Under the pieces are notes generated by a model. The model saw only the letters and a program-made list of their open reading frames with translations, ran no database searches and was not told where the DNA came from. Below, one piece after another: positions 8,270-30,218 of a stretch of 30,218 nucleotides of DNA; position 1 is the stretch's first letter, and the number at the start of each line of letters is the position of its first letter. The stretch is from a virus. The stretch covers positions 1 through 30,218 of IMG/VR virus record IMGVR_UViG_3300032304_000544. One strand, written 5' to 3'. Position numbers and translations under genes: made by a program.

Positions 8270-11200
8270 ATGCTTAACATATGGAATCAACCTTCTGGGT
8301 ACAGTTTTAACACGTACAGCGAACGTCAGACTCAGACCATACCTCTGCCCATAATTCCGGGCGCAGACCTAACAGGTGTATCTTTTACAGTGATCGCTGG
8401 CAAATTGCCCAGCGGCCTGCGTTTGGCCTACGACACAGGGTTAACTACTTGGGTCATCAAAGGTTCTCCGTTAGAAGTAGCCAGCAACACAACTTCCACA
8501 TTTGTAATCCGTGCATCCAAAGGCACAGAAATTGCCGACAGAACTTATACCATGACCATAGATGGTCCAGATGCTCCAGTATGGGTGACTCCTGGACCCA
8601 ACCCGGATATTCAAATCTACGACTTTGATTCTGCAACAACTTACCTGCCCGGTACTGTTATCAGACGCACAGTTGGAACTGTCAGTACTTTGTACACAAC
8701 TACTGCTACTGTGACTGGCGTAACTCCGCCTAACAGCGCATACTATCAAATTTTCACAGAGGACTCGGGATTATTACCTGTTGGTCCAGTTACTACCAGG
8801 GTGTCGTCGGTGGTTAGTGCAAAGAGAATTAGTAATATAGTCACTGTGACGACCGCATCACCACATAACTTCGTGTTTGGAAATATTGTTACTATTGCCA
8901 CCAATGTGCCTGCATTTAATGCGGCCAATGTCGAGGTGTTGCAACCTGTACCGCTCGACGGAGAAGAATACGAAGACTATCTCACAAGAATATCCACCAC
9001 AGTAACATTTAACAAACTAGGCGGCGATCTTACAACACAAACAGTATCAGGTACGGTGACATTAATTAAATCACCGTTAACTTTTGTATTAGATAACACA
9101 CCAGTAGATTTTCAACTAGAAGCAACAGACACCGACTTGTCGTCCGCTGATAATTTAGAATTTTTTATTGGAGATGGTGACGGCGAATTGCCACCGGGCC
9201 TATCTATGAGCACCAGTGGCAGAATTACTGGCATTATTGATCCAATCTTAGCGTTAGATATCACTGCTCGAACAGGATTCTACGATACAAATTTGTATGA
9301 TGCTTATGCCTATGACTTTGGCAAACGTCCCAATATTGGTGAGGAAGATTTTTTAAATGTGGTTACTCCCCGAAAATTAAACAGAAACTATGAATTCATA
9401 GTCACAGTTTCAGACGGAGAAACTATAGCAAGAAGAAGATTTAGAATTTATGTAGTTGGTGATGATTTCTTAAGAACAGATAACACACTGTTACAAGTTG
9501 GTGATGGTGCGTACACCGCTGACTCAACATATCTAAGAGCACCTATATGGTTAAGTGCGGCCAACCTTGGCCTACGTAGAGCAAACAACTATGTAACAAT
9601 ATTGTTAGATGTATTTGATCCAAATCCTGAAGTAGGTCCAGTGAGATACCAGTTGGCAGCGTTGAATGACGACTTGACGCCAAGTGTATTGCCCGACGGC
9701 CTATACATTGATACTGACACTGCTGAAGTGTTTGGGTTTGCTCCCTATCAGCCAGCAATCACAAAAGAATTTAAATTTACTGTAAATGCTATCAAATACG
9801 ATAAAGAAAATATCACAGAAGTAGAAGTGGCCATTGTAGTAGCAGACGATGCTCCTATAGGCCAGACCTTTTTGAAGATTCTGCCATTACCCGCAGAAGA
9901 TATCGAGTTATTGATCGGAGATGTTATTCGTATAGGTCCTAGTATCTATACCATGACTGAATATATTAGTAATACAGTTACTGGCGGAACAATGGCCACA
10001 CTTAGATTAGCAGAAGCATTGTTAACAAACGTAATCGACGGATTAATTATTAGAAAATTTTATAATCAATCTGTCAGCGAATTTTCAACACAGATTGCTC
10101 CCAAGACCTTTACTATTGCAGTGCTAGGTGAAGTTGATTCTGTCATTCAGTTTAATACAGATCGAATATTAGGTTCTATTAAGCCCAGTTTTCCAAGTAA
10201 CTTTTATGTGGAAGCAACCACTACAGTACCCAATGCTAAACTAAGATATACTCTAGTGGACGGGCAGTTACCCGAAGGGCTTGCACTAAGAGCGTCGGGT
10301 ATTATAGAAGGCAAGATCAATCAGTTCCGTGCTAACTCAGTATCAGGATTCACTTTGTTCGACGGTGGCGACACTACCTTTGACGGTGACAGTTTAACTG
10401 TGGATCGTTCGTATAGGTTCGTGGTTAATGCACAGGATCAGTTTAGATACAGTTCAGTCGATAAAGAATTTGTAATTACCATCAGTGAAGGTACACTGAC
10501 ACTGTATAGTAATATCTATACCAAACCGTTACCCAAACAAGCAAAGAGGGAATTATTTTATAATTTTATCAATGATACTACTGTGTTTACTCCAGAAAAA
10601 ATTTATCGTCTAGGCGATCCGTTTTACGGACTACAAACAGAATTAAAAATGTTGATATACGCTGGCATCGAAAGTAAGGAAATGCCAGCGTATATTGCCG
10701 CGCTATCAAAGAATATTCGACGCAAGCGTTATAGAATTGGTAATCTTAAAAAGGCTGTGGCCAAAACACAGGGCACTAATAATATTATCTACGAAGTGAT
10801 TTATCTTGAAATTTTAGATAATTATGAAATAGCCAACAAATCCGTGGCCAGTAGAATTAAGTTGGATCAAAACAGCAATAGTCCCACAAAAATTAACCAA
10901 GCAAGACGCAATCCAGTTGACGGCAGGCTTGGAACTGTTAACGGCAGTGGTGTAGTGACCTACGATAATTCTTATACAAATAGTAAGCTCAACGAACAGG
11001 CATTTGATAGATTTAGCCCAACATCAACACCACTGACTATTGATACTGCAAATGTGACGGTCAGCGGGGATGACGCAGAGTACGTTTATCCAAGTAGTAT
11101 TAAAAACATAAGAGCTAATATTGCACAAGTGGGATTGACAGAAAATGAATTTTTACCGCTATGGATGACAACTCCACAAGACTCAAGAACAGCGGCCACA

Positions 11201-11392
11201 GGATTTGTAAAAGCAGTACCATTGTGCTACTGTAAGCCTGGAGAAGGACAATTCATATTGGACAACATCAATAACAGAAGTTTTGATTTTAACCAACTAG
11301 ATTTTGAAATCGATAGGTTTATTATCGATTCTGACATAAACGATGTGCAGGAAAAATATCTAAAATTCTCCGATGCACGTTACAACATATGA
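8270..11392 (+). CDS. Large virion structural protein with Ig-like (He_PIG-type) repeats (1040 aa)
   Basis: ATG 8270 has SD GGGGA (8258-8262) and a late promoter immediately upstream. The 1040-residue product contains at least four copies of the LPxGLxx...GxIxG signature of putative Ig-like (He_PIG) domains: LPSGLRL near residue 45, LPPGLSMSTSGRITG near 306, LPDGLYIDTDTAEVFG near 473 and LPEGLALRASGIIEG near 667. The C-terminal ~200 residues include FLPLWMTTPQDSRTAA and VKAVPLCYCKPGEG, a tail segment I recognise from large structural proteins of marine T4-like phages. It probably forms an extended tail- or baseplate-associated component. Its exact T4 counterpart is unclear. Confidence 0.8.
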   Translation: MLNIWNQPSGYSFNTYSERQTQTIPLPIIPGADLTGVSFTVIAGKLPSGLRLAYDTGLTTWVIKGSPLEVASNTTSTFVIRASKGTEIADRTYTMTIDGPDAPVWVTPGPNPDIQIYDFDSATTYLPGTVIRRTVGTVSTLYTTTATVTGVTPPNSAYYQIFTEDSGLLPVGPVTTRVSSVVSAKRISNIVTVTTASPHNFVFGNIVTIATNVPAFNAANVEVLQPVPLDGEEYEDYLTRISTTVTFNKLGGDLTTQTVSGTVTLIKSPLTFVLDNTPVDFQLEATDTDLSSADNLEFFIGDGDGELPPGLSMSTSGRITGIIDPILALDITARTGFYDTNLYDAYAYDFGKRPNIGEEDFLNVVTPRKLNRNYEFIVTVSDGETIARRRFRIYVVGDDFLRTDNTLLQVGDGAYTADSTYLRAPIWLSAANLGLRRANNYVTILLDVFDPNPEVGPVRYQLAALNDDLTPSVLPDGLYIDTDTAEVFGFAPYQPAITKEFKFTVNAIKYDKENITEVEVAIVVADDAPIGQTFLKILPLPAEDIELLIGDVIRIGPSIYTMTEYISNTVTGGTMATLRLAEALLTNVIDGLIIRKFYNQSVSEFSTQIAPKTFTIAVLGEVDSVIQFNTDRILGSIKPSFPSNFYVEATTTVPNAKLRYTLVDGQLPEGLALRASGIIEGKINQFRANSVSGFTLFDGGDTTFDGDSLTVDRSYRFVVNAQDQFRYSSVDKEFVITISEGTLTLYSNIYTKPLPKQAKRELFYNFINDTTVFTPEKIYRLGDPFYGLQTELKMLIYAGIESKEMPAYIAALSKNIRRKRYRIGNLKKAVAKTQGTNNIIYEVIYLEILDNYEIANKSVASRIKLDQNSNSPTKINQARRNPVDGRLGTVNGSGVVTYDNSYTNSKLNEQAFDRFSPTSTPLTIDTANVTVSGDDAEYVYPSSIKNIRANIAQVGLTENEFLPLWMTTPQDSRTAATGFVKAVPLCYCKPGEGQFILDNINNRSFDFNQLDFEIDRFIIDSDINDVQEKYLKFSDARYNI

Positions 11393-13003: not shown

Positions 13004-13348
13004 ATGGCAGGAGTCAAAGGAACCATTCGGCCCTTACACGACAAAGTTATCGTAACTGATATGAACTTTGGGGAAACACGAAGTAGTGGGGGAATTGTTG
13101 TTTTAGGCGACGATGGTAAAGATAGAGGTATCCATCCGCGATGGGCCAAAGTGTTTGCAGTTGGTCCGGAACACAGTGAAGAATACGGAGTCGGCGATTG
13201 GATACTAATGGAACACGGTCGCTGGACTCGCGGTATTAAGTGCGAAAACGATGACGGCACAGAATACACAGTGAGAATGATTGATAAAAATTGTGTAATG
13301 ATGTGGAGTGATGAGGAACCTAACGATATCACGATTGGACACCTATGA
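13004..13348 (+). CDS. GroES-like co-chaperonin (T4 gp31 counterpart), 114 aa
   Basis: The N-terminus IRPLHDKVIVTDM matches the GroES beta-barrel start (RPLxDRVxV). It is followed by a mobile-loop-like stretch ETRSSGGIVVLGDDGK and the returning strand WAKVFAVGPE, equal to GKVxAVGxG in GroES. A further barrel strand is VGDWILMEHG. Length is 114 residues, against about 97 for GroES and 111 for T4 gp31. In T4, gp31 replaces GroES on host GroEL so that the capsid protein can fold. The gene has SD AAGGAA and overlaps the next gene by ATGA. The call is secure at family level; use with host GroEL is inferred. Confidence 0.9.
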   Translation: MAGVKGTIRPLHDKVIVTDMNFGETRSSGGIVVLGDDGKDRGIHPRWAKVFAVGPEHSEEYGVGDWILMEHGRWTRGIKCENDDGTEYTVRMIDKNCVMMWSDEEPNDITIGHL

Positions 13349-22090: not shown

Positions 22091-22586
22091 TCAATTTCGT
22101 CTAAGAGTTGACCCTGATCCATTGCTACATACGAAATTAGAACCTTTCGATTTTGGCTGTGGATGGAATACAGAAAAAATAGAGCAGTCTATGATTGCAA
22201 TCATGGAGGCTGGCATGGGCATAGGCATTGCCGCTAATCAAGTTGGCTTCGATCGACGTGTTATTGTCGTCAAACCCAAAGGACAACAGCCATTTACATT
22301 ATTCAATCCCGAACTCGTCAGCGGTGATGAATTGGTTGTGGACGAAGAAGGATGTTTGAGTTTTCCAAATCTGTTTATCAAGATCAATAGATTCAATAAT
22401 ATCACTGTGAAATATCTTGACAAACTAGCAAAAGAATGTACAATTACTTTAAGCGGGTACGACGCCAAGTGTGTGCAACATGAAATTGACCACTTAGACG
22501 GCATTACCTTTACTAAACGAGTAAGTAAGTTAAAGTTAGACTTAGCACTGAAAAAACAGAGGAAATTAGATGGTAGAACCAAGTGA
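22059..22586 (+). CDS. def: Peptide deformylase (175 aa, probable TTG start)
   Basis: All three deformylase motifs are present: GIGIAANQVG (GxGxAAxQ), EEGCLSFP (EGCLS) and QHEIDHLDG (HExDH). The Cys and two His therefore bind the catalytic metal and Glu is the base. It removes the formyl group from new proteins. The open frame extends to 21957, but upstream residues are the shadow of dnaJ. TTG 22059 gives a normal N-terminus (SNYQIATAPDQFRLRVDPD) and length, with only a weak SD; the start is the least certain point. It overlaps dnaJ by 32 bases and clpA by 17. Phage deformylases are common in aquatic myoviruses and are thought to support rapid protein maturation. Confidence 0.9.
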   Translation: MSNYQIATAPDQFRLRVDPDPLLHTKLEPFDFGCGWNTEKIEQSMIAIMEAGMGIGIAANQVGFDRRVIVVKPKGQQPFTLFNPELVSGDELVVDEEGCLSFPNLFIKINRFNNITVKYLDKLAKECTITLSGYDAKCVQHEIDHLDGITFTKRVSKLKLDLALKKQRKLDGRTK

Positions 22587-24810
22587 TCAACTGCAAGTAG
22601 TTTTTGAAAAGGCCGTTGCAGATTGCAAAAAATTAGGACACGAATACGTGACGTTAGAGCATCTCATCTTTGCCATGCTCTGCGAAGAAAAGTTCTACGA
22701 ACTACTTGTGAATTTTGGCGGTGATGGAGATTACATTAAAAAGAATCTTGAGCATTATCTCAAAAATCAATTAGACGAAATTAAAATAGATCCTATTCCT
22801 AAAGGATTCAAACCTAAAAAAACACAGACTGTGGAACGTGTGCTTAATCGTGCATTTACACAAGTGCTGTTCAGTGGCCGCCAAAGTATTGAACTGGTCG
22901 ATGTGTTTATGAGTGCGTTGAGTGAAAAGCGCAGTTATGCAGTGTTCTATATTAATAAGGGAGGAGTGGACCGTGAAAAGTTTGCTGACTTTATTAACAG
23001 CGAAATTGATGATGAAGATGAAGAACATGTAACAGATGCACAGAGCGAAAAAGCACTGAAGGCATTTACAACCAACCTTAACGATCAAGTCAAGAAGAAT
23101 AAAATTGATCCTGTTATTGGTCGTACAGAAGAACTGGAGCAAATTGCTCTTGGACTAGGACGCAGAACTAAAAACAATGTGTTGTTAGTTGGCGACCCAG
23201 GTGTGGGTAAAACTGCTATTGCAGAAGGTCTGGCGCACAACATTATTAATAAAGAAGTTCCCGACTTCTTAAAAGAGTACACAGTTTATAATCTGGATAT
23301 CAGTGCCATGCTTGCTGGCAGTAAGTATCGCGGTGACTTTGAAGAACGTTTTAAACTAGTGCTCAAAGGATTGGCCGGCAAAGGCAAAACAGTATTGTTC
23401 ATCGACGAAGCACACATGATCAGCGGTGCTGGTGCTGGCGGACAAGGTAATGCCAACGACTTAGCCAATATGATGAAGCCTGCACTGAGCAAAGGCAACA
23501 TCAAAGTTGTGGCCAGTACCACATGGGAAGAATATCGCAAGTACTTTGAAAAGGATCGTGCGTTGATGCGCAGATTCCAACGCATCACTATCGATGAGCC
23601 TACTCCAGAAATGGCTGTGGAAATTCTTAAAGGTATTAAGAAATACTACGAAAAACATCACGGTGCAGAGATTACCGATGCGGCTATTGAAACAGCAGTT
23701 AGATTATCTGTGAAATACATGACTGATAAGAAATTGCCGGATAAGGCCATTGACTTGATTGATGTTGCATGTAGTCGTTTCAATATTAAACCTGCTGACC
23801 ATAGACTAGTGGATGTTTCCGAAATCCAATACGAACTTGCTAAGATGGTTAATCTTCCTGAAGACACTGTCAAAGAAAAGGAAAACGACAATCTTGCCAA
23901 TCTCGAAAAAAATCTCAAAGGCGAAGTCTACGGACAAGATGCCGCAGTTGACGAAATTGTAGATAAGATTCTTGTTGCACAGGCAGGTTTAAAATCTGAT
24001 AACAAACCCGTTGGTAGTTTTGTATTCATGGGTCCAACTGGTGTTGGTAAAACAGAAGCCGCTAAACAACTCAGTAAACAATTAGGTATTCCGTTGATCC
24101 GCTTTGATATGAGTGAATATCAAGAAAAACACAGTGTATCCAAGTTGATTGGTAGTCCTCCGGGTTACGTGGGCTTTGAAGAAAACGCAGGCTTGTTGAT
24201 TACTAAACTACAAGAGAATCCGCATTGTGTTCTATTGCTGGATGAAATTGAAAAGAGCCATCCAGACGTGTCAACTATCTTGTTGCAGATCATGGATAAC
24301 GGATTTGTCACAGGCAGTAACGGTAAAGTTGCAGATGCTCGTAATATTATCTTAATTATGACCACTAACCTTGGCGCACAAGATGCTGAAAAGAATGTGA
24401 TTGGTTTTGGTAGTCAGGATAATGACTACGAGGACAAAGAGTTGAAGAAATTCTTTGCTCCAGAGTTCCGTAATCGTTTGGACGGCATTGTTACATTCAG
24501 CACGTTAAGCAAAGAAACAATGATTAAGATTGTAGGCAAATTCTTGGTTGAACTTAAAACGCAGGTCAAAGATAAAGGCATTAAAATTACTCTTAGTAAT
24601 GATGCCATCGACTACTTGGTGGATAAAGGATTCGATAAGAAGATGGGTGCTAGACCGTTACAGCGTGTAATCGACAAAGATATCAAGCGTCCACTCTCTA
24701 AACTTATGTTGTTTGGTAGTCTAAAACAAGGCGGTGCAGTAAATATTGCTGTTGAAGACAACGAAATCAAACTTGAAGTTGAGAATGAAACCATACAAGC
24801 AAACGTCTAA
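22570..24810 (+). CDS. clpA: ClpA-like AAA+ unfoldase with ClpP-docking IGF loop (746 aa)
   Basis: The layout is an N-terminal Clp-N domain (GHEYVTLEHLIFAML), then AAA-1 with Walker A GDPGVGKTAIAEG and Walker B VLFIDEAHMISGAG, and AAA-2 with Walker A GPTGVGKTEAAK and Walker B VLLLDEIEKSHPDVS. The linker between the two rings is short, so the ClpB/Hsp104 middle coiled coil is absent. The length matches E. coli ClpA (758). Residues 611-613 are IGF, in the position of the ClpA IGL loop that docks on ClpP. The protein should unfold substrates and could feed host ClpP; no phage clpP is in the window. SD AGAGGAAA precedes ATG 22570. Firm at family level. Confidence 0.92.
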   Translation: MVEPSDQLQVVFEKAVADCKKLGHEYVTLEHLIFAMLCEEKFYELLVNFGGDGDYIKKNLEHYLKNQLDEIKIDPIPKGFKPKKTQTVERVLNRAFTQVLFSGRQSIELVDVFMSALSEKRSYAVFYINKGGVDREKFADFINSEIDDEDEEHVTDAQSEKALKAFTTNLNDQVKKNKIDPVIGRTEELEQIALGLGRRTKNNVLLVGDPGVGKTAIAEGLAHNIINKEVPDFLKEYTVYNLDISAMLAGSKYRGDFEERFKLVLKGLAGKGKTVLFIDEAHMISGAGAGGQGNANDLANMMKPALSKGNIKVVASTTWEEYRKYFEKDRALMRRFQRITIDEPTPEMAVEILKGIKKYYEKHHGAEITDAAIETAVRLSVKYMTDKKLPDKAIDLIDVACSRFNIKPADHRLVDVSEIQYELAKMVNLPEDTVKEKENDNLANLEKNLKGEVYGQDAAVDEIVDKILVAQAGLKSDNKPVGSFVFMGPTGVGKTEAAKQLSKQLGIPLIRFDMSEYQEKHSVSKLIGSPPGYVGFEENAGLLITKLQENPHCVLLLDEIEKSHPDVSTILLQIMDNGFVTGSNGKVADARNIILIMTTNLGAQDAEKNVIGFGSQDNDYEDKELKKFFAPEFRNRLDGIVTFSTLSKETMIKIVGKFLVELKTQVKDKGIKITLSNDAIDYLVDKGFDKKMGARPLQRVIDKDIKRPLSKLMLFGSLKQGGAVNIAVEDNEIKLEVENETIQANV

Positions 24811-25470: not shown

Positions 25471-25510
25471 GTATATCCGCGAGCCTCCGCAGAACATGGT
25501 GATTATATGA
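25469..25510 (+). CDS. 13-codon leader mini-ORF coupled to the next gene
   Basis: ATG 25469 encodes MYIREPPQNMVII and stops at TGA 25508-25510, which overlaps ATG 25507 as ATGA. The SD-like GGAG (25464-25467) is too close to this ATG for a standard site, so its own translation is doubtful. If translated it would deliver ribosomes to the downstream gene, whose own SD is weak. Confidence 0.3.
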   Translation: MYIREPPQNMVII

Positions 25511-25851
25511 AAATAAATGATGTAGATAAGCAATCAGATAAGTTTAATGATGTCGACTTTATCGATGATTTAAAGTTTTTTATGCACAACGACCCACGTT
25601 TTTATCGTAAAGTGGTCTATCCGGTAATTGCTGAGCTCAAGGGCAAGTTAAAAACCGGCAGCAAGTGCAATGAGATGTCATTCATGTCCTGTATCGACAA
25701 GGCTATTCCAGTATATTGTAACAAATTTAAAATAACACAGAATCCCAAAGTTCTCTTCGACCCTGAAGAAGTTAAAGATTTAGCCGTTAAAATGTTTCAT
25801 GAAGAAAAGCACAACATTAACAACGGTGTGTATGACGGGAGAGACGAATGA
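25507..25851 (+). CDS. Conserved phage protein, function unknown (114 aa)
   Basis: The 114-residue, mainly helical soluble protein has landmarks DFIDDLKFFMHNDPRFYRKV and VYPVIAELKGKLKTG, and three Cys spread over residues ~54-71. I recognise the FIDDLxFFMHNDPxFYR type N-terminus from proteins at the head of similar gene groups in marine T4-like phages, without known function. It begins the late-promoter operon and overlaps the nucleotidyltransferase gene by ATGA at 25848. Fixed linkage to that gene suggests a partner or packaging factor, but this is a guess from context. Confidence 0.7.
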   Translation: MKINDVDKQSDKFNDVDFIDDLKFFMHNDPRFYRKVVYPVIAELKGKLKTGSKCNEMSFMSCIDKAIPVYCNKFKITQNPKVLFDPEEVKDLAVKMFHEEKHNINNGVYDGRDE

Positions 25852-26708
25852 TCCTATTAGAAGGCGGCAATGTTTTTAAAACTGCTGACAAACAGCCATT
25901 AACTCAACGTATTGCTACTGAAGATGTGCCAACGACTGTAGATTTTATTGAAAAAATTACAGGGTTAGATTTTACAGCGGAAAAAGATCCTGATGATGAT
26001 AAACCAGTCAAATGGCTAGGGTCAACTGGTCGTAAAGAAGATCCAGAAGGCACATTTGAATTAAACAGTTCTGGCGACTTGGACCTAAGTGTTGATGCTA
26101 GAGAAATAACTAAAGAAGATCTAATACAAAAATTATTCGATTGGTGTATTGCTAACGGTATTTCTGAAGAAGATATTTTTAACAAAGGCACAAAGAAAAC
26201 CGACGGATGGATTAAAGACGCCGGCGACAACGTACATTTTAGAACTCCTATCAATGGTGATCAAGAAAACGGATTTGTACAATCCGATTTTATGATTACA
26301 TCTAATCCTAAATTTCAACAAGGATCTATGATTGGTGGTAATAAGAATTACCGAGGAGAACATAGACATATTGTACTTTCCAGTATTGCAAGATCAAAAG
26401 GAATCAAATACAGTCCAAAGTTTGGACTAATTGATCCCGAGACCAACGAACCGTTACCCGACGGAGATGATTGGAATAGTATTGCTAAAATATTATTAGG
26501 ACAAACTGCATCTGTTAAAGATATTAAAAATGTTAATACAATCTTAGATTATATTATTAAATTGCCTAACTATGAAGAGTTAGTAGCAGCCGCCAGAGAA
26601 ACATTAGATAGGGAAGGTGTTAAACTTCCCAACAAAACAAATGCCGTTGAAACATATACCCCCGGTTCAATCGGATGGATGCGTAAAATTATAGACATTG
26701 TAAAATGA
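25848..26708 (+). CDS. Pol-beta-superfamily nucleotidyltransferase (286 aa)
   Basis: The signature of the Pol-beta nucleotidyltransferase fold is complete: Gly58-Ser59 in WLGSTGRK, then Asp77 and Asp79 in SSGDLDLSVD, and a third acidic residue Asp147 in FVQSDFMI. Such enzymes move an NMP from an NTP to RNA, protein or small molecules; the acceptor here is unknown. The N-terminus MILLEGGNVFK is short and includes LLE|G, which fits the (L/I)-x-E rule of T4 gp21 protease. It overlaps both neighbours by ATGA. I recognise the family from aquatic T4-like phages, where it is uncharacterised. NTase fold is confident; substrate is not. Confidence 0.82.
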   Translation: MILLEGGNVFKTADKQPLTQRIATEDVPTTVDFIEKITGLDFTAEKDPDDDKPVKWLGSTGRKEDPEGTFELNSSGDLDLSVDAREITKEDLIQKLFDWCIANGISEEDIFNKGTKKTDGWIKDAGDNVHFRTPINGDQENGFVQSDFMITSNPKFQQGSMIGGNKNYRGEHRHIVLSSIARSKGIKYSPKFGLIDPETNEPLPDGDDWNSIAKILLGQTASVKDIKNVNTILDYIIKLPNYEELVAAARETLDREGVKLPNKTNAVETYTPGSIGWMRKIIDIVK

Positions 26709-27853
26709 GATTAAGAGAATTATTTTTTGAAACCACAGACTTAGTTAAAAAGAAACTAGGTCGTGCTTTCAACCATCTCGAAGATTTGGTTTTCTTCTAT
26801 GGCGTAGAAGGAACTATTGAGGCACTGGAACACGTTAAAGAAATTGCCACACAAGAAGGTGCAGAATCTGTACGGATGAAATGGGACGGTAATCCTCAAA
26901 TCTATTGGGGCAGAGAAACAGCCAATGGTCCGCTAATTCTTTCTGGACACAACGGATGGGCACGTGGTGCTAAGACTGACAATCCAGAAGCAGTAAAAGA
27001 CTTTATTGCTAACAAAAGTGGTACACCTAAAAACGATGAAGAACGCAAACAACGTGACGAGTTTGCTACAAAGTTTGCCAACTTATATCCAGCGTTTGAT
27101 GCGGCAACTCCTAAAGACTTTGTAGGGTTTGTGTATGCTGATGCATTATTTTTAGACAAACCCGATTTAAAAGATAACGTCTATACATTCTGTCCTAACC
27201 CTAAATCACAGACCTGCTACCATGTAAGAGGTGACTCCGAATTAGGTAAGCGTATTGCCTATGCAGATGTTATGGTAGTGGGTCATGCTTACTTTCCAGA
27301 GTTTGGCATGGATGACAGCGAGCAAAAACCGTTAGACGACTTTGATAAGTTTAATGCAAATCCTAAACTAATTGTACAAGGTCCAATATACAATAAAAAA
27401 TCAGTCAGTGTGGATACACAGATAGTCGATGACATTGAAAGTTATGCACAGCAACATGCTTCTGAAATTGAAGGATTTTTATCTGACACAGCAGGACTCA
27501 GTGACCTTAAAAACATATTCTATACCTATGTGAATCAAACAGCCAGAGCAAAACAATTGGCCAGTTTAGGTTCCGAGAATTTTAAAGCATGGTTGGAAAA
27601 ATCTAAAGTCAGTGCTGGTAAACAAGAAAAAATACAAGGCAAAATGGATGCACATCCAAATGCCGTTGATGCTATTTTTTCCATGGTTAAACAAATACAG
27701 TCCATGAAAAACGAAATACTAAAACAAGTTGAAGGTGAGCAGGGCGATATATGGGATACGAACGGCGAAGGTCGTGTACGTTATGCAGGCTCTGAAAAGA
27801 AATTTGGAAATGTAAAATTGGTGAACAGAGACCAGTGGACACCTGGAGAATAA
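26705..27853 (+). CDS. KxDG ligase-like / DUF6267-type protein (382 aa)
   Basis: Residues 59-62 read Lys-Trp-Asp-Gly inside SVRMKWDGNPQIYWGRE. This is the form of motif I (KxDG) that carries the covalent AMP/GMP in ATP-dependent DNA and RNA ligases and capping enzymes. An FVGFVYADALF segment near residue 140 could supply the later acidic motif. The C-terminal half is helical (FLSDTAGLSDLKNIFYTYVN) and ends KLVNRDQW. The N-terminal MRLRELFFE resembles the next gene's MRLRNLFEE. I place it with the uncharacterised phage DUF6267-like group; a ligase function is inferred from motif I only. It overlaps the NTase gene by ATGA and ends one base before the next start. Confidence 0.7.
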   Translation: MRLRELFFETTDLVKKKLGRAFNHLEDLVFFYGVEGTIEALEHVKEIATQEGAESVRMKWDGNPQIYWGRETANGPLILSGHNGWARGAKTDNPEAVKDFIANKSGTPKNDEERKQRDEFATKFANLYPAFDAATPKDFVGFVYADALFLDKPDLKDNVYTFCPNPKSQTCYHVRGDSELGKRIAYADVMVVGHAYFPEFGMDDSEQKPLDDFDKFNANPKLIVQGPIYNKKSVSVDTQIVDDIESYAQQHASEIEGFLSDTAGLSDLKNIFYTYVNQTARAKQLASLGSENFKAWLEKSKVSAGKQEKIQGKMDAHPNAVDAIFSMVKQIQSMKNEILKQVEGEQGDIWDTNGEGRVRYAGSEKKFGNVKLVNRDQWTPGE

Positions 27854-27854
27854 T

Positions 27855-28865
27855 ATGAGATTAAGAAATTTATTTGAAGAAAAGATTAGCGAGGTAGCCA
27901 TTATATTTGGTCGCTTTAATCCTCCACACAAAGGACACAAAGCGGCGTGGGAAACTGCGGCCACTAAAGATGTATGGTATGTAGGAACCAATCAAAGCAC
28001 GGTAGGTCCAAAAGATCCACTGCCTTACGATGTAAAAGCAGAGTGCATGAGAGTTATTTGGCCTGATGTTGCCGATCACATTGTTCCAGAAACTAGTTGG
28101 TTGACACTGGCCAGTTATGTATATCGAGAACACGGAGATGTAAATTTAATTATTGTCACAGACGAAGAATGGGTAGTTCCTACTATACGGGAATACAATG
28201 GTAAATCCGGACCACACGGTGAGTATAATTTTCCTGAAATTAGATTGTTTCATGATAGTATAGAAGAAGCAAAAGGAGAATTACGTAAAAGTTCTGCCAC
28301 TGCATTGCGTGATGCAGTGTCTAAAGGCGATAGACAGGCATTTAGTGATGCGGCTGGCGTAAGTGCAGAAACACCAGTTATGGGTGAACCATTCTTTGAT
28401 CTAGTTGCAGAATATTTGATGCCTTATCAAGACAAGGCCAAAGAAAAAGCAAAGAAAAAAGATTCTAAGAAAAAAGAAGAGCCTAAAAAAGAAGAGCCTA
28501 AAAAAGAAGAAGAACCTAAGAAGGAAAAATCTGATATGAAGATTAAAGACATAGCAGAAGGCATGGGTGCCTACGACAGAGACTATGCCAGTAGTATAAG
28601 AGGCATGAACAAGAAAGACAGTGTTGCTTATCAGCAAGACGGTGGCGGCAATGACGAAGACCACGAAGGTGATAGACGCCGCGAGCGTGAAGCCGAACAA
28701 GGTCCTTGGTATCTTCGAATCGATGGAAAAATCTTTAAATCAAAAGGCGAAGTAAAAGTATTTGATTGGAAAAAAGGTGCCAATAACTACGCACTTGCAA
28801 TTCTTAAAAATAAACCCGAACTGCAAGGTAAAATAATGCTTACTAAGAATCCAGAAGACAAATGA
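27855..28865 (+). CDS. HxGH nucleotidylyltransferase (NMNAT/cytidylyltransferase-like) with K/E linker and C-terminal domain (336 aa)
   Basis: Residues 14-28 (VAIIFGRFNPPHKGH) hold the T/HxGH active-site motif of nucleotidylyltransferases (His25, His28). SSATALRD near residue 145 fits the ISxTxxR phosphate-binding motif. An NMN adenylyltransferase or related cytidylyltransferase activity is likely for residues ~12-180. A highly charged linker (about 194-225) encoded by a 15-base tandem repeat follows. Next comes a second part starting MKIKDIAEGMGAYDRDYASS, and a C-terminal module with GPWYLRIDGKIFKSKGEVKV and WKKGANNYALAIL. The N-terminal MRLRNLFEE and internal DIAE|G resemble T4 capsid-targeting and gp21-cleavage sites. 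Fold is confident; substrate and packaging are inferred. Confidence 0.82.
   Translation: MRLRNLFEEKISEVAIIFGRFNPPHKGHKAAWETAATKDVWYVGTNQSTVGPKDPLPYDVKAECMRVIWPDVADHIVPETSWLTLASYVYREHGDVNLIIVTDEEWVVPTIREYNGKSGPHGEYNFPEIRLFHDSIEEAKGELRKSSATALRDAVSKGDRQAFSDAAGVSAETPVMGEPFFDLVAEYLMPYQDKAKEKAKKKDSKKKEEPKKEEPKKEEEPKKEKSDMKIKDIAEGMGAYDRDYASSIRGMNKKDSVAYQQDGGGNDEDHEGDRRREREAEQGPWYLRIDGKIFKSKGEVKVFDWKKGANNYALAILKNKPELQGKIMLTKNPEDK
28470..28517 (+). repeat. 15-base tandem repeat coding a Lys/Glu linker
   Basis: AAAAAAGAAGAGCCT occurs exactly at 28470-28484 and 28485-28499. An 18-base variant follows at 28500-28517. It encodes KKEEP-type units between the adenylyltransferase domain and the C-terminal part. 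Confidence 0.85.
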
Positions 28866-29149
28866 AACAATATAGAATCAGTACAGAAAATTTAAATCAA
28901 GACAGTCCCGATGATTGTTTTCTTGATCCATCTGATCCGATTCACGAAATTAAATCTATTCAGCATCTTGCAGGACTGGGTCATGCCGCAAGATTGCAAG
29001 AATATCAAGGCAGTAACATCAGCGTAACCGGCAGTGAAAAGGGCCGAATACAGAGAGAAAAGAATATTAAGCCTGGAACTCCAGAATGGTTCCAACTATG
29101 GTTTAGTCTACCTTATATGACAGGTGAAGGACCGGTAAATAAAAAATGA
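28862..29149 (+). CDS. Conserved small protein, function unknown (95 aa)
   Basis: The 95-residue soluble protein is coupled at both ends by ATGA overlaps (28862 and 29146). The N-terminal half is acidic (DSPDDCFLDPSDPIHEIKSI). The C-terminal third has the segment REKNIKPGTPEWFQLWFSLP, which I recognise as a recurring C-terminal signature in proteins of this gene group in aquatic T4-like phages. No catalytic motif is visible. The GTPEWFQLWF helix may be a docking element shared by the group. Function unknown. Confidence 0.65.
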   Translation: MKQYRISTENLNQDSPDDCFLDPSDPIHEIKSIQHLAGLGHAARLQEYQGSNISVTGSEKGRIQREKNIKPGTPEWFQLWFSLPYMTGEGPVNKK

Positions 29150-30218
29150 AGGCCAGTGATTTAAACTTACCCGAGGGCATGGAAGTCTATGTTGACATGG
29201 ACGGTGTTCTTGCAGACTTTTTTGCAGAGTATGCAGTACTAGCAGGTCTTCCTAGAGGCAGTAGTTACAGAGATATTCCTCCAGCAAAAACAGATCCCAC
29301 ACTAAACAAGATGGTGGGCACAGATTTCTTTGCACGTTTACCAAAGTTTCCCACAGCAGATAAACTAATACAGATAGTTGTTGATACTGCGGGCGGATAT
29401 AACATTTGTTCTAGTCCGTTACGTGGCGATCACGAAGGATCAGCAACATATAAAAAACAGTGGATCGAAGAACACTTGGATCCACAACCAGACAATATCT
29501 ACATTGTATCTAACAAAGCCAAGTATGCTTTCAATCCCAGCGGATTACCCAACGTATTGATAGACGACAGGGGCAGTAATATCACTGCATGGGAAGCCGC
29601 TGGTGGTATTGGTATCAAATATCAAGCAGATGAAGACGGTCTTCAAGTTATACTAGATGGACTTAAACGTGCCAGACGTGTGGCGCAAGGTGACGAAAAA
29701 CATGAACCACAACAACTAAAAAGCCTAGATAGAAGTCAAGGAAAATTAATTGCCACCAGTGGTGACAAAGATGTGGATGAAGGTCGCAAGAAAAAACGTA
29801 GAAATAGATACGGTGCATTGTACGGCCCAGGACCATACGGATTATATGGGTGGGATGCAGGCTACAGCGGATCCGGCTCAATGGGCGGTGATGGTGGCGG
29901 TGATGGTGGCGGTGGCGAAAGTCGTATCAATGAAGCATGGACACCTGATAAACAACAGCGTATCAAAGAGTTTGCGCTGTGGGCCATCAAACTGTTGGAA
30001 ATTGAAAAAGCACCAAAAATTAAACTAGTCAGTGATAGTGGTACTAGTGCGTTGGGATATTTTGATCCGGAAACACAAAACATAGTTGTCACTGTCAAAG
30101 ACAGGCATCAAATGGATATCATGCGTACATTGGCGCATGAACTGGTGCATCGTAAACAAAACGAAGCAAGAGAATTAAATGGCGAAACTGGCAGTCCAGA
30201 CGAAAACGAAGCCAATTC
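29146..30218 (+). CDS. HAD phosphatase fused to HExxH metallopeptidase-like domain, 3' end outside window
   Basis: ATG 29146 overlaps the previous stop (ATGA). The 357 visible residues run off the right edge. Residues ~13-170 are a HAD-type phosphatase like 5'(3')-deoxyribonucleotidases: nucleophile DMDGV (Asp17, Asp19), NICSSP for motif II and VLIDDRGSN for motif IV. A basic stretch (GRKKKRRNRYG) and a Gly-rich linker encoded by a 12-base repeat follow. After INE|A begins a second domain with LAHELVHRKQ (HExxH zinc site) and a downstream ENE that could supply the third ligand, as in gluzincin peptidases. The HAD part is confident. The zincin part is likely; cleavage at INE|A is speculation based on the gp21 rule. 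Confidence 0.82.
   Translation, partial: MKASDLNLPEGMEVYVDMDGVLADFFAEYAVLAGLPRGSSYRDIPPAKTDPTLNKMVGTDFFARLPKFPTADKLIQIVVDTAGGYNICSSPLRGDHEGSATYKKQWIEEHLDPQPDNIYIVSNKAKYAFNPSGLPNVLIDDRGSNITAWEAAGGIGIKYQADEDGLQVILDGLKRARRVAQGDEKHEPQQLKSLDRSQGKLIATSGDKDVDEGRKKKRRNRYGALYGPGPYGLYGWDAGYSGSGSMGGDGGGDGGGGESRINEAWTPDKQQRIKEFALWAIKLLEIEKAPKIKLVSDSGTSALGYFDPETQNIVVTVKDRHQMDIMRTLAHELVHRKQNEARELNGETGSPDENEAN
29887..29916 (+). repeat. 12-base tandem repeat coding a Gly-rich linker
   Basis: GGTGATGGTGGC occurs at 29887-29898 and again at 29899-29910, followed by a GGTGGC half unit. It encodes the GDGG-type hinge between the HAD and metallopeptidase-like domains. Confidence 0.85.

Follow-up and report, generated by a model that had tools for sequence, protein, structure and literature searches.

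The enzymes encoded at the right end of this viral contig, which derives from an uncultured T4-like phage, are probably carried in the phage particle, because the tag at their start resembles the one that loads proteins into the head of T4. Capsid targeting followed by cleavage is the best account of this enzyme array, and we consider it likely to be correct based on comparison with related phages and on the virion protein lists of homologs. The reading is largely supported for three predicted proteins: a DUF6267 protein, a cytidylyltransferase, and a HAD protein. Here, we describe the gene run and its enzymes, and then assess the leaders, their relatives in other phages, and the alternatives.

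A run of coupled enzyme genes

The window, i.e., the whole 30.2-kb viral contig analysed, carries T4-like tail, clamp-loader, endolysin, peptide deformylase, and ClpA/B-like genes identified by library models. At the DNA level, a search with the window turned up no close match in phage isolates. The tail region includes a 1040-aa protein (8270-11392) that matches no PHROG at E 0.001, and a 114-aa protein at 13004-13348 has, by eye, the look of a GroES/gp31-type co-chaperonin. The right end is a run of six tandem genes on the + strand, with neighbours overlapping by 4 bases or lying 1 base apart. The earlier note had described five consecutive coupled genes here; all five are present in tandem, mostly coupled via 4-base overlaps, but the gene just upstream (25507-25851) is a member of the same array too. 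The features are as follows, with a slash marking each putative cleavage site.

25507..25851, + strand: 114-aa protein at the upstream end of the array, with leader-bearing relatives
25848..26708, + strand: Pol-beta-type nucleotidyltransferase (NTase), by motifs, no significant library model
25848..25862, + strand: MILLE/G, a phi-x-E site without the targeting core
26705..27853, + strand: DUF6267, ligase-like (Pfam E 7e-17)
26705..26731, + strand: MRLRELFFE/T, putative leader of DUF6267
27855..28865, + strand: HxGH cytidylyl/adenylyltransferase, multi-part (PHROG E 1e-15)
27855..27878, + strand: MRLRNLFE/E, putative leader of the cytidylyltransferase
28536..28559, + strand: MKIKDIAE/G, putative internal leader at the fusion joint of the cytidylyltransferase
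28566..28832, + strand: mobile C-terminal domain of the cytidylyltransferase
28862..29149, + strand: 95-aa protein without a recognisable leader, conserved among several relatives
29146..30216, + strand: HAD (NT5C-like) domain, Gly-rich linker, and HExxH domain, truncated by the contig end
29146..29175, + strand: MKASDLNLPE/G, putative leader of the HAD protein
29923..29934, + strand: RINE/A, at the linker/HExxH joint of the HAD protein

Motifs and profile matches confirmed the enzyme domains claimed earlier: the NTase, the KxDG ligase-like DUF6267, the HxGH enzyme, and the HAD plus HExxH protein. The NTase has GSTGRK (26019-26036) and DLDLSVD (26076-26096), following the pattern GSxGRK...GDLDLSVD, and the GS and Asp pair are kept in 20 relatives. 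It is named for these motifs and their conservation rather than for a library match, as Pfam and PHROG profile searches named neither the NTase nor the 95-aa protein. Its predicted structure (mean pLDDT 66) was too weak for a structure search. The cytidylyltransferase contains both HxGH (HKGH, 27927-27938) and SSxTxxR (SSATALR, 28290-28310) and matches phrog_3041 (E 1e-15), while its match to Pfam CTP_transf_like falls below that model's cut-off; the enzyme is followed by a Lys/Glu-rich linker, the internal leader, and the mobile C-terminal domain. In the last protein, the HAD part is NT5C-type (PHROG E 1e-19), and the HExxH part (HELVH, 30136-30150) has weak metallopeptidase matches.

DUF6267 carries KWDG (26879-26890), EGRV (27767-27778), and VKLV near its C-terminus. 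Thus, motif I (KxDG) and motif IV (EGxV) are present: K59, W60, D61, G62, E355, G356, and V358 are invariant in 24 relatives, cyanophage included, and a C-terminal VKxV is common to all aligned relatives. Comparing the predicted model by VIA-align, the best 49 matches listed were all DNA/RNA ligases, with modest scores (Z ≤6.1). Foldseek found no significant PDB match for this model, and PDB sequence searches with DUF6267 and with the cytidylyltransferase returned no matches. A ligase-type fold is a tentative assignment. The set of ligase, nucleotidyltransferase, and phosphatase suggests, as a guess, a role in nucleic-acid end processing, and the NMNAT-like protein suggests a role in NAD or nucleotide metabolism.

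Leaders at gene starts and fusion joints

In three of the window enzymes, the putative leader ends in phi-x-E. The MRLRxLF start noted previously is indeed common to the ORFs at 26705 and 27855, and the HAD protein has its own leader, MKASDLNLPE/G, which was absent from the earlier note's list. The other array members differ. MILLE/G of the NTase had been proposed as a targeting peptide; the phi-x-E site is there, but the targeting core is absent and some relatives have no site. One NTase subfamily keeps MIL(L/N)E/GG, while in another it is absent, and some relatives begin with MSKNVIF at the equivalent mature end. A profile search found no NTase homolog in a 10.8-kb stretch of Melnitz or in S-CREM2. 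The case for the NTase as head cargo is weak, and we regard it as doubtful cargo. The 114-aa protein starts with MKINDVDKQ, a leader-like core minus the Glu, and its relatives carry a leader (MKIQDLFEN, MRIRELLEG). The 95-aa protein has no such leader at its start; its packaging is unsupported, and it bears no sign of cargo status.

To place these starts in context, we used 79 related viral loci from a DUF6267 search plus two large related contigs, G1 (365 kb) and G2 (235 kb). Of 37 distinct DUF6267 leaders, which differ in length, 36 have the phi-x-E site ahead of a conserved LGRAFNHLEDL; the residue after the site is usually Ala. Residues 1-19 of the window DUF6267 are disordered in the predicted model. 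The leader is absent in the cyanophage DUF6267 relatives (GC71). Unrelated proteins around the DUF6267 loci start alike (MRANEFLREA, MRLLELKELMEA, MKINQVLVES, MKVREIIAEG, MKIKELISED), with the pattern M[KR]xx[EDQN][LIF].. plus a phi-x-E site. When proteins were clustered on their bodies minus the first 22 residues, and the core was defined as an M[KR]xx[EDQN][LIFVM] start, 34 of 627 protein components had at least one core start, and in at least 12, each with three or more members, the core was the rule; because multi-domain proteins chained one large component together, the family count is an estimate. A second recurring start, MD(M/L/I)(K/R)xI/L..LD, occurs on several genes downstream of the array in two loci (L001 at 12912 and 15096; L022 at 15266 and 16552).

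These leaders exceed chance. In G2, 10 of 303 gene starts but 0 of 1352 internal Met combine the core with phi-x-E (p=4e-8), and the G1 figures are 10 of 457 and 4 of 1560 (p=1e-4); the simple script that called the genes may have misplaced individual starts. One G2 gene block is strongly enriched in the core (11/22 genes vs 4/281 elsewhere; p=2e-11, a descriptive value because the block was picked after tagged genes were seen there). A looser pattern, M[KR] then phi-x-E within 20 residues, was rejected as not clearly above chance: it matched 27/457 and 18/303 starts in G1 and G2, respectively, vs 3% of internal Met. It did no better once M[KR] was given; hence the stricter core was used. Could the similar starts be a functionless by-product of start-codon context, amino-acid composition, or duplication of neighbouring genes? 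Early codons that are AT-rich tend to specify Lys/Asn/Ile, and block neighbours can share starts through recombination. However, the G2 clustering persists among M[KR] starts alone (11/14 vs 4/36, p=1e-5), a result that speaks against start-codon context as the cause. In addition, the bodies are unrelated, and the site stays while leader length and body vary. We thus consider a by-product very improbable. The conservation of the tag apart from domain sequence, which the earlier note had proposed to seek in related phages, is borne out: the leader recurs on unrelated bodies and is clustered.

Sites of the same kind lie within proteins. In L001, whose DUF6267 is 84% identical to that of the window, MKMKDLAE/S takes the place of MKIKDIAE/G, although the downstream sequence differs; likewise, the HAD joint reads ESRINE/AWTPDK in the window and ESRLNE/AWTPDK in L001, although the L001 HAD domain differs. 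Where domains are fused, the internal sites therefore persist even as the flanking sequence diverges. KDIAE/G and RINE/A, as previously listed, are thus present at joints and kept in variant form in L001; the sites may be cut, which would separate the fused domains. The mobile domain that follows the internal leader (~90 residues, AYxRDYxSS...DGGxNDE...IDGKxxK) also occurs on 22 further proteins, almost all of them leader-bearing. Beyond the window copy (28566-28832), it occurs at L047 12825-13361, L065 4589-5116, and 87494-89320 of the G2 contig, and in L047 and L065 it comes immediately after the leader.

Prohead protease, T4-type leaders, and virion protein lists

A Peptidase_S77 (gp21-type) prohead protease is encoded in both G1 and G2 (G001/G002), contigs of >200 kb; it is seen in relatives only because the window is without head genes. 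The gp23 junctions in G1 and G2 have the same phi-x-E form, with Ser next: YLAE/SATGGATSAGN and NIME/SASAGATQAGN, at a position that we take to be about where T4 gp23 is cut. Small leader-bearing proteins repeat this junction after their leaders (MKVYEILE/TASAGATSSAN, MRLRELLGE/TATAGATSAGN). Small Lys-rich proteins with E/TASAGATSxxN, after the leader or internally, are encoded at L022 13861-14118, G1 174115-174372, and L047 12825-13361.

Among the closest known systems is that of the T4 internal proteins IPI, IPII, and IPIII, which carry a capsid targeting sequence (CTS) that gp21 cleaves; IPII and IPIII start with MKTYQEFIAE/A. The leaders here resemble those of T4 in the M-K start, spaced hydrophobics, and phi-x-E/A end, as well as in being interchangeable between bodies, and the relatives G1 and G2 likewise encode an S77 protease and a gp23 with a site of this type. 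The spacing is as a rule 9 residues here and 10 in T4; MRLRELFFE, MRLRNLFE, and MKASDLNLPE have the T4 layout (positions 4 and 7), but with spacing one shorter or positions different. T4 tags small basic proteins, whereas many of the putative cargo proteins here are multi-domain enzymes, and the sites are repeated at internal joints. The new aspect relative to T4 is, on this evidence, a predicted system that is enzyme-rich and modular, with sites at internal joints.

Distant orthologs connect the window leaders to T4. The cytidylyltransferase starts with MKKFSAFLNE/A in Syn19 and S-SM1, MKSFSQFLTE/T in P-SSM2, MKSFFQFLSE/A in S-SM2, and MKNFSSFLTE/A in S-CREM2. The leader is a module, as the cytidylyltransferase is bare in jumbo phages GAP32 and RaK2 and in cyanophage Sf-FP1. 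No leader was found at the annotated S-PM2 cytidylyltransferase start, which may be misplaced. In methylophage Melnitz-1 (MZ577095), homologs of the window's DUF6267, cytidylyltransferase, and HAD proteins likewise lie together in a single run (E 2e-10, 5e-13, and 4e-19), with T4-type leaders (TTG)INFSKYITE/D, MKKFSEIIE/A, and MKSIVEVTSINE/E, respectively. In S-SM1, the homologous HxGH enzyme (T4-GC190) adjoins a DUF6267-type gene (GC71), resembling the window array. The cyanophage leaders are nearer to those of T4 than the window's are, but the cyanophage DUF6267 relative is without one.

Published proteomes report homologs in cyanophage virions. The virion proteome of S-SM1 includes T4-GC190 (PMC3037559), that of S-CREM2 includes its cytidylyltransferase (PMC10665884), and that of S-SCSM1 includes an NMNAT (PMC9602691). 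The HxGH enzyme has the N-terminal leader in S-SM1 and S-CREM2, the two of these phages covered by our leader comparison. Two of the proteome papers allow for carry-over in CsCl purification, which could affect abundant enzymes. In S-CREM2, the virion list contains all four proteins matching a T4-type pattern with a site (ORFs 6, 13, 14, and 154) and 24 of the remaining 191 non-structural proteins (p=3.5e-4); this is one phage, and the pattern was derived from T4 proteins but after the detected list had been seen. The tagged proteins there number four to six; a looser pattern gave 6/6 (p=5e-6) but was shaped by the data and is not to be leaned on. Two of the tagged proteins on that list are a SAM hydrolase and an APH-like kinase (S-CREM2, OR473000), and ORF12, annotated as Cas9-like and also listed, has RFASFMAE/A a few residues inside its start. 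The available text of the S-SM1, S-CREM2, and S-SCSM1 papers yielded no mention of a CTS. Our limited literature search, in such text as it covered, found no instance of "capsid targeting sequence" applied to cyanophages, which is no proof of novelty.

A different address for the leader, such as a degron or adaptor for the phage Clp-like AAA+ ATPase or another assembly site, seems to us a very slim prospect. A ClpA/ClpB-like gene does lie upstream of the array (22570-24810, PHROG E 3e-250), as it also does in L001 and L022. However, such an address predicts neither the phi-x-E end with mostly Ala/Ser next, nor the gp23 junction, nor the link to virion proteomes.

A proposed route from head loading to delivery

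Under capsid targeting and cleavage, a leader of ~8-12 residues (M-K/R, spaced hydrophobics, phi-x-E) would act like the T4 CTS, docking the protein on the prohead scaffold core. The gp21-type S77 protease would cut after the leader Glu while cutting gp23 and the scaffold, and fused proteins with joint sites may at that stage be split into separate domains. The freed enzymes would remain in the head, pass into the next host along with the DNA, and act there before phage gene expression. We infer that the array enzymes of the window phage would be carried in the virion, trimmed there, and delivered in this way. The earlier proposal that the enzymes are packaged and matured is largely supported for the DUF6267, cytidylyltransferase, and HAD proteins, given their leaders, orthologs, and the protease, but is weak for the NTase and has nothing in its favour for the 95-aa protein.

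The leaders could also target the prohead core with cargo that serves head assembly and is then degraded or expelled, or stays, rather than entering the host in active form. T4 IPIII affects head assembly too (PMC9026906), and several of the tagged proteins are small, basic, and core-protein-like. Yet the tagged enzymes have conserved catalytic motifs, which suggests that activity is under selection, and, in S-CREM2, peptides of tagged enzymes persist in purified virions (PMC10665884). We therefore judge a pure assembly role unlikely, and prefer targeting, cleavage, and delivery. Head loading by N-terminal signals or propeptides with delivery to the host is also known for the DarB/Dar proteins of P1 and the ejection proteins of SPN3US/phiKZ, where the cargo is unrelated; the P1 DarB signal lies within 30 residues (PMC9024508) and SPN3US propeptides span 20-254 residues (PMC10052503), both longer than the leaders here.

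A bolder version is tentative and, in our view, somewhat doubtful: a virion-loaded kit of cleavable polyproteins, with every domain behind a protease site, whose nucleic-acid end-processing and nucleotide enzymes, released by the protease that also matures the head, would work on the incoming genome or on the host ahead of any phage gene expression. If the internal sites are cut, the prohead protease would be a polyprotein processor too. Targeting by leaders would offer a mechanism for the presence of NMNAT-like enzymes, SAM hydrolase, and kinase in cyanophage virions, which the authors could not distinguish from contamination. A readable leader would make the head cargo of lake and ocean T4-like phages predictable from sequence alone.
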